Both the position numbers and the translations under genes were made by a program. Under the pieces are notes generated by a model that did not search any database, was not told the DNA's origin, and saw nothing but the letters and a program-made list of their open reading frames with translations. A DNA stretch of 64,000 bases from Thunnus maccoyii. Taxonomy: Eukaryota > Chordata > Actinopteri > Scombriformes > Scombridae. The stretch is from positions 27,720,957 through 27,784,956 of the forward strand of contig NC_056542.1 in assembly GCF_910596095.1 (NCBI RefSeq), written 5' to 3'. Positions 16,790-60,320 of this stretch are shown here, in pieces (the stretch's first letter is position 1; every line of letters starts with the position of its first letter).

Positions 16790-29286
<12,497 letters not shown>

Positions 29287-54700: not shown

Positions 54701-55925
54701 CTACAATCTTAGGTACAGAACTAGTTTGTGATTATTTGATACTGTTGTGGACGTTTATTGTAACGAAATTTTATAATTTCATTTGGTTGGTCTGAATTAA
54801 CATGTAATATTTGGTCTGTTAAATATTGTATCTGTGAAAAGCAAAAAATAAACACATCATAATGCTGATTCTGTATCAAGACTTCAACTGATAATCATTG
54901 CAATAAATTGCATGGACATCATGGAGGGATTGCCTACGGTACGTGTACGGTTATTAGCTGCTTGGTTTTAGCTCATTTAAAGGGCTGTATCTTGGCTAGC
55001 TGTCACATTAAGCACTTGACTCAGGTCCGTTTTTCCAATCTGCCAAGACCAAATGAATGCTGTACCCACCATGGGGAGACCAAGATTTCAAGAGATTAAT
55101 CTGGAACTGCATGTTGCATGCATCAACTGACAATTTGTCACGTTTGTTTTTGCTTGAGATGTATTCCTTTTGTTCATTTCCAAGCACTATCGGGTTTGCT
55201 TCAGACCAACAACCTTTAAAAGTCTTAACTCAAACATTTTGTTGATGTTTTCAGAATGTCAGACCAAAGAACAAACCAGAAACTGTGTTCCTGCATTTGT
55301 TGAGGAGTTGCCGGCAAGTTGCTTTTGTGTCTGTGTAGCCAGCTGGGTTGCACCTGTGATGTTCCGCATTGTGTCCTCGGTGTTTTCAATTAAGAGGCAT
55401 GAGGCAGCATTGGGTCTCAGGTCTTTAGTAGTGATCCTATATAATATATACAAAGTAACAAAAACACCAGCTGATGGTGTTTGTGTGCGTCTGCTTGGCT
55501 CCCCTGACTGTCACTGGAAAAAGTTTTGACCCAGTGCACGCACGCACACACACCTACGTAACTATGTTGAACACATACACACACACAAACCCCAAATGAC
55601 ACACAGGTAGGAGATGCAGCCCCAGTAGAACAAAAATAATAAACGGGAATGATTTAATGAAATTTATAAGCTATGCCTACATTAATCTGTTACATCTGCA
55701 ATGTTAACAAATTAATTGAGTACTCTGAAAATTTCACCTCTTCCTTCAGTCTTTGATTAAACAGCTTCTCTTTACATTAACAAGACCCAGGATGCAGAGT
55801 GACGTGATGGTCACAGAAATCCTTCAAATATTTGTTGAGGTATTTCAGTATTTCAGGTATTTCATCATTTATCCAATCCAATTCAAAAAGCTTAAAGTCT
55901 GTGCTTCGTTGATCTGACAGCTCCC

Positions 55926-56506
55926 TCAGCTGATCATGCAGGACTGGTAGGTGGGCACCATGTATTTGATGTTTATGAAGGTGTCCTTCCCTCCGAAACG
56001 CTCAAACATCTCCAGAGTCTCCTGGATCAGGTCACCAATGTTCTCCCTTTTACGCTGGCTGTATTCAATGCCATCTCCACAGTTTATATTCATGTTCTTG
56101 AAGATGTTGAAAACGAGGAGGATCTGTCTCTAGTAGGGCACCAGAGCCTCTCCCACCTTGTCTGCAGACATTACCAGATGCTGCAGGACTTTCAGGGTGG
56201 TGGCCATCACCTGACGGTTCCTTGTGTTCAGGGCAATCCAGATGGGAACGATGAGCTGCGGGATGACAGGCAGGATCTTGAGGCCTCCGTGCTTCAGCAG
56301 GTCATGGACTCCCTGGCGTGCAAAGAACTAATATGGATGAACAGTCTCACATAAGCCATCAAAGAAGAGAGGCAAGTAGTGGTGGTAGTCCAGCTTCTCA
56401 ATCTCGACCTTCCATACAATGCGGTTGCGTGCTGGTTTATGCTGCAGTGCCAGAGACAGCTCTCCACGCTCATAGAATGAGCGAAAGGTTGTTGGTTTGG
56501 AAGGGC
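55926..56506 (-). pseudogene. PACRG-like intronless pseudogene (copy A)
   Basis: Same minus-strand PACRG-like sequence as copy B, ending with a TGA at 55926-55928. Two in-frame stops break it: 56130-56132 (Tyr of VPYYRQ to TAG) and 56328-56330 (Glu of PYEFFARQG to TAG). No frameshift lies between them; both are in register with the C-terminal stop. The N-terminal part present in B (58654 to about 58825) is deleted and replaced by AT-rich sequence after 56506. The AATAAA downstream of copy B's stop is GATAAA here. It cannot make a full PACRG-like protein. Confidence 0.88.
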
Positions 56507-56793
56507 AATGCTGATAATAAATAAATAATATAAATAAATAATATTTGTGTGACTCTCAAAATGTGATGCCTGTTGTTTTTTTGTAATGGTTGCTATCACC
56601 GGTGTCAAGGTGGTCTTGTTCTCCTATGAAGCAAAACATAAAAAGACTGTTTGGGGACATCAAGGCATATAAAGGTTTTATTTGAATCCGGTTGCTATGC
56701 CCCACCCCCTTGGTTACTGTTGCTATGCTGGTTAAGTTGTTTATTTTTCTGTATCTCAAGAACAAGAGCATGTACTGTTTGCTTTGTACTCTC

Positions 56794-56864
56794 AGAGGTG
56801 TTTCTAATATTTTGTCCATCCCATTTATATGAATTAGGGTAGGCTAAATATTAGAAACACCTCT
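56794..56864. repeat. 19-bp inverted repeat inside repeat family 4
   Basis: 56794-56812 (AGAGGTGTTTCTAATATTT) is the exact reverse complement of 56846-56864; loop 33 bases. The unit B equivalent near 59096-59166 has one mismatch. Confidence 0.9.
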
Positions 56865-57329
56865 CAGTATAACCTAATACATTTCAACAGCACCACATAC
56901 TACCCCCCAAAATGACCATAACATCAAGCAAAACCTCTCTAAAAAAGATGAAATAAAAACTTAACATTATAACCTTTATGTATGTAGGATTTATTGCAGG
57001 GCTATTGTATTATTCTGCATTAGTTTTATCTAAGTGTATCTAATAAACTGGCAATATAATACAGTAGAAAACGTTTTTAACACTGCTAAGCAGTGATGAG
57101 GACTAATACTGTAAGAAATAAAACTAATGAATTTTTTTTTTCAGAAATTTACTCTTTAGATTAATTGTCCGACCACCAATGTGATGTTTCTTTTATCAAC
57201 ATTCTTTATTCACACTGTATTGACATAACTAATACCTTTCCCACTAGCACCTTTATGTTTTAAAAAAGTAAAAGTAATGAAGATATTCATATGATATTTA
57301 TGATGCGGGCACCAGAGAAAAATTCAGGG

Positions 57330-57630
57330 AATCACCAAAGTGATTACAATTCACCCTGTAGGGAGCATGAACATCTGTACTGAGTTTCATTCCAATTCAT
57401 CCAGTAGTTGTTAAGACATTTCACTCAGAAACACAAAGGCCAGCGTCATTGTGATGCCAGTGAAAAGTCAGGGGATAACTATTCATGGGATTCATCCTCA
57501 GCAGACCATGAATATCTGCACAAAATTTCAAAGAAATCCTCCAAATATTTGTTGAGGTATTTCAGTTTGGACCAAAGTGGTGAACCAACCAAGCCGTTGC
57601 CAAGCCCACAACCAGGCTGCTAGTGACTGA
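57330..57630 (+). repeat. Common teleost dispersed repeat (GGACCAAAGTGGTGAACC type)
   Basis: Contains CATTCCAATTCATCCAGTAG, AAAAGTCAGGGGATAACTAT, AAATATTTGTTGAGGTATTT and TTTGGACCAAAGTGGTGAAC, a consensus I recognise as very abundant in teleosts. A fragment of the same repeat (AATATTTGTTGAGGTATTTC, from about 55826) sits just before unit A. Confidence 0.75.
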
Positions 57631-58004
57631 AATGAATGTATCAAAAGGGCTACTACCCCTCTCTGTTCAACCAGTTTACAGCTGAAAGTCAGAACTTAAC
57701 CTTGTTTACTGTTTAAGTATAAGCTTAATGTAACAAACCACTCATTATCTGTCCTAATGACTTCAGATGGCTGCAGGAAGTGAATCAATGTAAGGAGAAG
57801 GCTTTCAGACAGCCTAAATGAAGCTGTTTATTAAATTAATAAATAATGCATGGAACAGAAATTCTTTAAATAAGTGATGGGTAACGTGAGCTGTGGATTT
57901 GTTTGTATACTGAAATGGCTTCATTGTGACAGTTACAGACATCTTACGAATGCTCTTGCATAATAGTTTTACAAAATAATTAAGTTCTCAGTTCTTAAAT
58001 GCAA

Positions 58005-59425
58005 CATTTCATCATTTATTCAATCCAACTGAAAAAGCTTAAAGTCTGTGCTTCGTTGATCTGACAGCTCCCTCAGCTGATCATGCAGGACTGGTAGGTG
58101 GGCACCATGTATTTAATGTTTATGAAGGCATCCTTCCCTCCGAAACGCTCAAACATCTCCAGAGTCTCCTGGATCAGGTCACCAATGTTCTCCCTTTTAC
58201 GCTGGCTGTATTCAATGCCATCTCCACAGTTTATATTCATGTTCTTGAAGATGTTGAAAATGGGGAGGATCTGTCTGTAGTATGGCACCAGAGCCTCTCC
58301 CACCTTGTCTGCAGACATTACCAGATGCTGCAAGACTTTCAGGGTGGTGGCCATCACCTGACGGTTCCTTGTGTTCAAAGCATTCCTGAGGGGAACGATG
58401 AGCTGCGGGATGACAGGCAGGATCTTGAGGCCTCCGTGCTCCAGCAGGTCATGGACTCCCTGGCGTGCAAAGAACTCATATGGATGAACAGTCTCACATA
58501 AGCCATCAAAGAAGAGAGGCAAGTAGTGGTGGTAGTCCAGCTTCTCAATCTCGACCTTCCATACAACGCGGTTGCGTGCTGGTTTATGCTGCAGTGCCAG
58601 TGGCAGCTCTCCACGCTCATAGAACGAGCGAAAGGTTGTTGGTTTGGAAGGGCGCTCCCAAAAAGCCCCTGCAGCCGGGGGACCTTCAACCACGGTGTTC
58701 TTCATGGTGGCCTTCATGGTGAAGCCTTGGGCTTTTAGCTTCTTCTTCTCAACTTCTCTTCTTCTCAACATATTCACAGGCCTTCTCTTGTTAAACAATG
58801 TGGCAAATCCAAACCGAAAACAAAGAGCAATATTGATAATTAATATTTGTGTGACTCTCAAAACGTGATGCCTGTTGTTTTTTGTAATGGTTGCTATCAC
58901 TGGTGTCAAGGTGTTCTTGTTTTCCTATGAACCAAAAAACATAAAAAGGCTGTTTGGGGACATCAAGGCATATAAAGATTTATTTGAATCCTGTTGCTAG
59001 GCCCTGCCCCTTGGTTACTGTTGCTGTGCTGGTTAAGTTGTTTATTTTTCTGTATCTCAAGAACAAGAGCATGTACTGTTTGCTTTGTACTCTCAGAGGT
59101 GTTTCCAATATTTTGTCCATCCCATTTATATGAATTAGGGTAGGCTAAATATTAGAAACACCTCTCAGTATAACCTAATACAGTTCAACAGCATCAAATA
59201 CTACAACCTCCAAAATGACCATAACATCAAGCAATACCTCTCTAAAAAAGATGAAATAAAAACTGAATATCATAACCTTTATGTATGTAGGATTTATTGC
59301 AGGTATTGCATTGTATTGTTCTGCATTAGTTTTATCTAAGTGTACCTAATAAACTGGCAATATAATACAGTAGAACATGTTTTTACACTACCGAGCAGTG
59401 ATGAGGACTTATAAGAAAAAAAAAC
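58005..59425. repeat. Tandem duplication, unit B
   Basis: Partner of unit A (55855-57120). Includes the intact PACRG-like ORF and the family 4 repeat upstream of it. Confidence 0.9.
58073..58771 (-). CDS. PACRG-like intronless retrogene candidate (copy B)
   Basis: PACRG is a ciliary/flagellar inner-junction protein that binds tubulin with FAP20; its normal vertebrate gene, divergent with parkin, has several introns (family knowledge). Here one uninterrupted minus-strand frame gives 232 aa from the Met of [12 protein letters not shown]; the frame stays open for 46 more codons upstream without similarity. From [20 protein letters not shown] onward it follows PACRG closely: [58 protein letters not shown] and the terminal [12 protein letters not shown]. 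Full-length for the conserved domain and without introns, which points to retroposition. An AATAAA (minus strand, 58015-58020) follows the stop. No poly(A) tract or target-site duplication found. Expression unknown. Confidence 0.85.
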
Positions 59426-59429
59426 TAAT

Positions 59430-60320
59430 GAATAATTACAGAGAAAATAAGAATAAATAATTAAAATAAATAAACATAAATAACTAGAAGTTTGTGATTG
59501 TAACCCGGGGGTGACACAAAGTTAAAATGTTATATTCAAATATGCTGTTTGTTTTGTTCTGTGCTCTATAGACATTTCTCCATCACAAAAGCTTCATTCT
59601 TTACAGACATCAGGAAAATATTTGGGGACAACTTCATCACAGGAGTATCATGTGCTCAGTGAAGGATACCTTTATTGGTGACAGTGGTGTCTGCACTCCT
59701 TATATATGCAGCATCAGTGGGCCCCCTCCCCTATTAATACATTCATTGTCACACCTGTAAAAATAAATGAATCAACAAGTATTGTAAATACATGAATCTG
59801 TAGTGGTTATTAGAGTTGTCAGTAATTAAGTGTTTATAACACATTGAAGAAAGTCTGCACAATCTGCAATCTCAGTATATTTCAACCCTTTTCTCTCATC
59901 ATTCTGTAATTGCTGTATCAAGTTTTCACAATGAGGTTTCAGAATAATATCAAACATTACAGGGAGTAATAATCAATAATTCTATTATGAGATAATTATA
60001 AGGACTGGCTCTAATATTGTTTTAGAAACAGTCTGTCTATTTAATTCAGCTGGGAGTAATAGTTTACTTGTACAGAAATTTAAACTTTTGATTCCAGGCT
60101 GTTTAAGGGCCCTCCTCATGTTTGGGACCTGGGTACTTACGGTTCCCCTCACTACTACACCCCTGATTGGTGAGAAAAAACACTCCAGATCCCTCCTCAG
60201 TTTCAGTGGTTCAATTTGACAGACATGTATTATCAGTTACAGTACAGAGGTTATGATGTCTCTGTGGTGTCCTGAAGTGTTTTTAAAAGAAACTACAGAC
60301 ATCCCACGATCATCAGCCAG
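59430..60320. other. Intergenic, no gene supported
   Basis: AT-rich start (AAATAA-rich near 59440-59480). Short exon-like pieces near 59570-59690 have AG borders but no supported frame. Confidence 0.35.

Follow-up and report, generated by a model that had tools for sequence, protein, structure and literature searches.

An intact processed copy of pacrg in Thunnus maccoyii, probably retained as a working retrogene

PACRG, a protein of motile cilia, shows strong conservation and, to our knowledge, is usually taken to be the product of a single gene in vertebrates, save for the more distant PACRGL. In doublet microtubules, PACRG is described as alternating with FAP20/CFAP20 along the inner junction (PMC6994238). 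More than one PACRG protein per genome, as predicted here, is described for the trypanosomatids, whose PACRGA and PACRGB occupy alternating positions in the inner junction and have distinct N-termini (PMC7617938); nothing in our data ties the gene studied here to these paralogues by descent. According to the VGP Phase I preprint, ray-finned fishes actively recruit retrogenes, and a high share of their retrocopies is under selection (PMC13320880), so that the gene considered here represents a known kind. We found no report of a PACRG retrogene or retrocopy in the open-licence PubMed Central literature; papers there that mention processed pseudogenes do not name PACRG in their titles or abstracts, and papers on teleost pacrg duplication contain no mention of a retrogene in the excerpts available. 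As far as the available text of one report goes, pacrg is listed among the genes on Asian seabass B chromosomes, with parent or processed copy left unstated (PMC6211105).

Here we describe copy B, an intronless PACRG frame within a window (the whole stretch of DNA that was analysed) of 64,000 nucleotides on contig C10 of the Thunnus maccoyii genome; other contigs are numbered in the same way. Like the retained fish retrogenes described in PMC13320880, copy B is intronless, has an open frame and shows a dN/dS below 0.5. It differs from that class in that most of its related copies appear to descend from a single insertion that was amplified at the DNA level, two of the copies being intact. We consider it likely (probability of roughly 0.8) that copy B is a working retrogene that originated from a spliced pacrg mRNA, was copied at the DNA level, has been held by purifying selection and has a PACRG-like role in the axoneme. 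The spliced-mRNA origin, the shared flanks and the selection are read from sequence comparisons; we infer the role of the protein and the involvement of a LINE in its insertion.

Parental pacrg and its processed copies

A protein search of the host genome (782 Mb in 54 contigs, with 20 of 20 candidates scored) returned at least 21 matches to PACRG. Four of these make up the parental gene on C16 and the other 17 belong to at least nine processed copies. Parental pacrg comprises five coding exons (C16:13355081-13500426), which encode 228 amino acids and have GT/AG borders as judged by eye. All four introns of the parental coding region are missing from copy B, in which every exon border is closed, and the parental leader and exon 1 match copy B positions 58897-58689 at 72%; leader homology further upstream than 58897 is weak. 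The absence of introns, together with the presence of part of the parental 5' leader, identifies copy B as a processed copy, and we regard its origin by retroposition as settled by the closed exon borders and the leader homology.

The frame of copy B opens with an ATG at 58771, ends with a TGA at 58075-58073 and contains no internal stop. The stop-to-stop frame extends to 58924 (283 amino acids), with 58771 as its first in-frame ATG. The Pfam ParcG model (PF10274) matches over profile positions 1-183 of 183 (E 9.7e-82) and solved PACRG chains match with a best E of 1.1e-121, mammalian chains being closest and those of sea urchin next. Chance comes nowhere near explaining an open frame this long that is homologous over its full extent. 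Near the N-terminus, copy B has an insertion of 12 bases (four residues) that is missing from the parent and from all other copies that cover the site. Copy B thus has the same full-length domain as parental pacrg and a homologous leader, but differs in having no introns instead of four, four extra residues, a more basic product and flanks of its own. These results agree with the preliminary description, which had proposed that an open minus-strand frame with the whole PACRG domain arose by retroposition from a multi-exonic parent; that parent lies on another contig. A faxc neighbour had also been proposed, and is supported by one GST_N_4 match at window positions 21189-21374, which holds one TAA inside; a second GST_N_4 match occurs on C17.

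Beyond the first bases of the 3' part (Table 1), the match to the parental 3' untranslated region is at best weak. AATAAA occurs there at 58020-58015 and 57832-57827. We recognised no poly(A) tract by eye in 58072-57823, which we do not count against assignment to the retrogenes because such tracts erode with age in retrocopies. The candidate target-site duplication is only seven bases long and, taken alone, weak.

Table 1. Positions of copy B, its surroundings and related copies (window coordinates unless a contig is named)
Feature	Position	Strand	Basis or remarks
Copy B, PACRG retrogene with intact frame (232 aa)	58073..58771	-	ORF reading, Pfam, solved-chain matches
Leader of copy B	58772..58948	-	58897-58772 homologous to 5' leader of parental exon 1
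3' part of copy B insertion	57830..58072	-	initial ~30 bases match parental 3' UTR
Left candidate target-site duplication, AAACAGC	58949..58955	-	by eye and junction alignment
Right candidate target-site duplication, AAACAGC	57823..57829	-	by eye and junction alignment
Upstream flank, outside mRNA-derived part	58949..59433	-	shared with other carriers to differing lengths
Fold-back MITE-like repeat, one arm	59092..59360		inside shared flank; inverted self-match
Downstream flank	57139..57829	-	shared to differing lengths with C14, C15, C17, C18a, C18b and the C18c/d region
Copy A, degenerate twin in tandem	55926..56506	-	TAG at codon 99 (56330-56328) and codon 165 (56132-56130); no start codon, first ~36 codons missing
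Second intact PACRG retrogene, 228 aa	C14:27848832-27849506		omega 0.29-0.37

In addition to copies B and A on C10, processed copies are found on C14, C15 and C21 (one each) and on C18 (four). The copies on C18 lie at 7.71 Mb (C18a), 9.21 Mb (C18b) and near 12.52 Mb, where C18c and C18d are 3 kb apart on opposite strands. Those of C15 and C18c are fragments, and overall, stops, frameshifts or truncation disrupt seven of the nine copies identified. The preliminary description had pictured a tandem pair; the pair of B and A is real, but accounts for only two of the nine processed copies identified, and C14 carries the second intact one. Amino acid identity to the parent is 190/228 for copy B and 189/228 for C14, and the two share 199/228 with each other.

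The silent divergence of copy B from the parent (dS 0.356) indicates that it is not young, and copy B may be a long-established intronless pacrg gene that many fishes share rather than one particular to this lineage, which we regard as possible, if doubtful. Even so, copy B would remain a retrogene of the C16 parent; this alternative concerns age only and does not compete with the reading of copy B as a working retrogene.

Two family searches for parkin beside parental pacrg gave nothing on C16. Parkin-type domains match only on C50, an unplaced contig of 23 kb, where the exons (C50:3068-4409) adjoin long low-complexity stretches. The placement of parkin away from pacrg may be an assembly matter.

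Protein changes and predicted role

Of 165 sites at which human, mouse and sea urchin PACRG do not vary, copy B is altered at 18, at all of which the parent is unchanged. Nine of these 18 changes are shared with C14. The parent itself is altered at 12 of the 165 sites. The changes at invariant sites suggest that the function of copy B may have shifted. The computed isoelectric point (pI) is 9.45 for copy B, 8.97 for C14 and 7.74 for the parent, and lies at 8.3-8.5 for the human and sea urchin fragments, so that part of the gap between copy B and the parent is the parent's own. We speculate that a basic copy B might grip acidic tubulin surfaces better. A putative CFAP20-binding stretch, which we placed by eye from the description in PMC6994238, is present in copy B. 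The substitutions L172F, S182C, D187E and Q191R lie in or near this stretch, each at an otherwise invariant site.

As the whole domain is under strong constraint (see below), the simplest reading is that copy B does the work of PACRG as an extra subunit. Most likely, to judge from these comparisons, copy B encodes an additional PACRG paralogue of ciliary or sperm doublet microtubules, a possibility also raised in the preliminary description. By homology, the protein would, with CFAP20, form part of the inner-junction filament by which the B-tubule of these doublets is closed. It would be a somewhat more basic paralogue, perhaps limited to certain tissues (e.g., testis) by a promoter of its own. 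The parental leader contains two X-box-like sites (L030 8205 and 8231), neither of which is kept in copy B. A scan with a pattern that we take to be the RFX X-box consensus gave three hits for copy B, versus 0.86 expected from shuffled sequences, and three for C14. No canonical site was seen by eye among the hits of copy B, and we do not claim that an RFX X-box promoter was carried along with it.

Alternatively, copy B may be a working retrogene that has left the axoneme and taken on a different function, such as one in the manchette or in the cytoplasmic transport of spermatids. The altered invariant sites and the high pI relative to the parent would fit such a role, and mouse PACRG is described as also working with MEIG1 in the manchette (PMC4352978, PMC8592874, PMC4698733). 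However, the complete ParcG domain and the strong constraint fit the old fold and partners equally well, and the human and sea urchin values make the pI gap partly parental. On balance we consider a role outside the axoneme unlikely.

Sharing of the inner junction by paralogues is possible, as the description of the trypanosomatid proteins indicates (PMC7617938). By analogy, we tentatively suggest that a retroposed pacrg that spread as DNA may have left two copies as lasting subunits, so that doublets in sperm or certain ciliated tissues would contain two or three PACRG proteins instead of one. That the copies formed a family of which two members were retained is the more interesting part of the finding. 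A second and a third PACRG under selection would constitute a natural experiment on the tolerance of the inner junction for paralogues, as well as a testable candidate for tissue-specific axonemes.

Shared flanks and the spread of the copies

Sharing of the upstream flank of copy B begins at 59433 for A, 59385 for C21, 59364 for C14, 59276 for C18d and 59030 for C18a, and is in pieces for C18b. Seven of the nine copies (B, A, C14, C18a, C18b, C21 and C18d) therefore have in common upstream sequence that is not derived from the mRNA, amounting to about 80 bases in C18a and to hundreds in the other six carriers. The flank is also found at C17, which holds no PACRG. The MITE-like arm (904 first-look candidates genome-wide, 40 of which were scored) is present, in full or in part, in six of the seven flank-sharing copies, C18a being the one without it. 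The downstream flank was not seen with C21, and a highly abundant repeat takes up its positions 57590-57310 (40 of 2135 first-look candidates scored). C15 shares the downstream flank only, and the C18c fragment is adjoined by neither flank.

Separate insertions would not share upstream sequence from outside the mRNA, and the common flank indicates that most of the copies stem from one retroposition followed by copying at the DNA level. We rejected a separate retroposition for each copy in the case of the seven that share this flank. That the nine copies represent several separate retropositions of pacrg would fit the lack of the shared upstream flank at C15 and of either flank at C18c, as well as a LINE-like piece on C17 whose target point almost coincides with that of PACRG, but the upstream sequence common to seven copies, six of them with the same MITE arm in whole or in part, makes this quite improbable. 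Instead, we propose reverse transcription of a spliced pacrg mRNA and its insertion, for the majority of copies most likely in a single event, with a LINE as the most likely source of the machinery. Copies of the insertion and its flanking sequence would then have reached other chromosomes, and a single tandem duplication would have given A and B. Most copies would have died, while B and, separately, C14 would have stayed under purifying selection. In trees of the copies, the inner branches are short, support ranges from 34 to 100, and the position of C14 varies by region, a pattern compatible with rapid spread.

The LINE-like piece on C17 (L036 1928-2449) matches the Pfam model ALKBH8_N (E 6.4e-9), a model that presumably gives frequent hits to the terminal part of LINE reading frames in fish. 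We considered C17 as an empty site that predates the insertion. It has both flanks, yet unrooted flank trees do not separate it from the PACRG carriers, and this interpretation was rejected; loss or replacement of PACRG fits at least as well. The flanks of B and C17 diverge by 14% upstream and 6% downstream, and the nodes of C17 have support of 51 and 60. Movement of the PACRG unit within a transposon is not supported: parts of the flanks consist of repeats, we found no ends common to the copies, and three open frames located upstream of copy B lack Pfam matches. Six short matches to window positions 59420-60200 lie within 30 kb on C3 (C3:30088535-30118256), as if in a tandem cluster.

Selection on copy B and its intact relative

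Codon models were fitted to seven of ten aligned sequences (C15, C18c and C18d, being either incomplete or too degenerate, were excluded), with stops and gapped codons treated as missing data and p values unadjusted for the number of tests. In the branch models, copy B plus the A/B stem has an omega of 0.114 (2dlnL 34.2, p 4.9e-9 versus 1) and the B tip alone 0.129 (p 0.0012). The seven-sequence model gave 0.30 for C14 (p 0.002). The parent branch, including the stem of the copies, has an omega of 0.45 (p 0.023), the inner branches 0.42 (p 0.09) and the dead copies C18a, C18b and C21 jointly 0.61 (p 0.017). For copy A, omega is at the upper bound (p 0.046). As the dead copies also fall below 1, some of the constraint is ancestral, and part of the low value of copy B may reflect older history.

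With only the parent, C14 and B included, omega is 0.138 for B (p 3.3e-8), 0.365 for C14 (p 0.038) and 0.35 for the parent (p 0.002). The same three sequences over codons 41-232 give 0.134 (p 7.6e-8), 0.30 (p 0.02) and 0.46 (p 0.058), respectively. Under the flank topology, B is at 0.111 (p 3.8e-9) and C14 at 0.286 (p 0.001), and the omega of B differs from that of the dead copies (p 6.4e-5). Across the four set-ups, the whole B lineage thus has an omega of 0.11-0.14 (p 8e-8 to 4e-9); the significance for C14 is weak in the three-sequence test.

The frame contains 27 CpGs in the parent, 18 in B and 16 in C14. As loss of CpGs may inflate silent divergence, we also scaled nonsynonymous differences by the flanks. 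Between B and C14 we counted 31.5 nonsynonymous differences versus 52 to 81 expected at divergences of 0.10 to 0.155, a deficit with p 0.001 to 2e-10. The uncorrected flank divergences of 0.142 (B-C17) and 0.155 (B-C14 upstream) give 74-81 expected, and 0.10 is a low value set by choice.

Copy A is the best control for selection on copy B. Its positions 55859-56506 align to 58006-58653 of B at 96.6%, and 56527-57132 to 58829-59433 at 91.5%. As the start of A is a broken junction (codons 37-40), we compared only codons 41-232, which hold 19 of the 26 differences in the frame. Since the two copies split, B has accumulated seven silent and two amino acid changes in these codons, versus one and nine in A (Fisher p 0.005). 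The nine in A include the two TAG stops. Adding an amino acid change of B at codon 38 gives seven and three versus one and nine (p 0.02). The pairwise omega of B and A is 0.52. The pair provides a clean case of one duplicate kept and the other lost from the same start.

In neutral simulations from the parental frame at 10% divergence, a fraction of 0.14 of the runs were free of stops. When one indel per ten substitutions was assumed, 0.001 were free of both stops and frameshifts. Together these analyses constitute strong evidence, at the level of sequence, that copy B has been kept by purifying selection. They uphold the earlier suggestions that selection maintains B, whose dN/dS lies far from 1, and that its tandem twin has decayed. 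That copy B is a processed pseudogene, open by luck or through recent duplication, is very improbable: seven of the nine copies are broken, about 45-90% of retrocopies across vertebrate lineages are described as lacking intact frames (PMC13320880) and 14% of the neutral runs are stop-free when indels are ignored, but the low omega of the B lineage in all four set-ups and the different kind of change in A and B, which have the same age and place, argue against it. A TAG at codon 165 is common to A, C18a and C18b and absent from B, the sister of A; it may reflect recurrent change or gene conversion.
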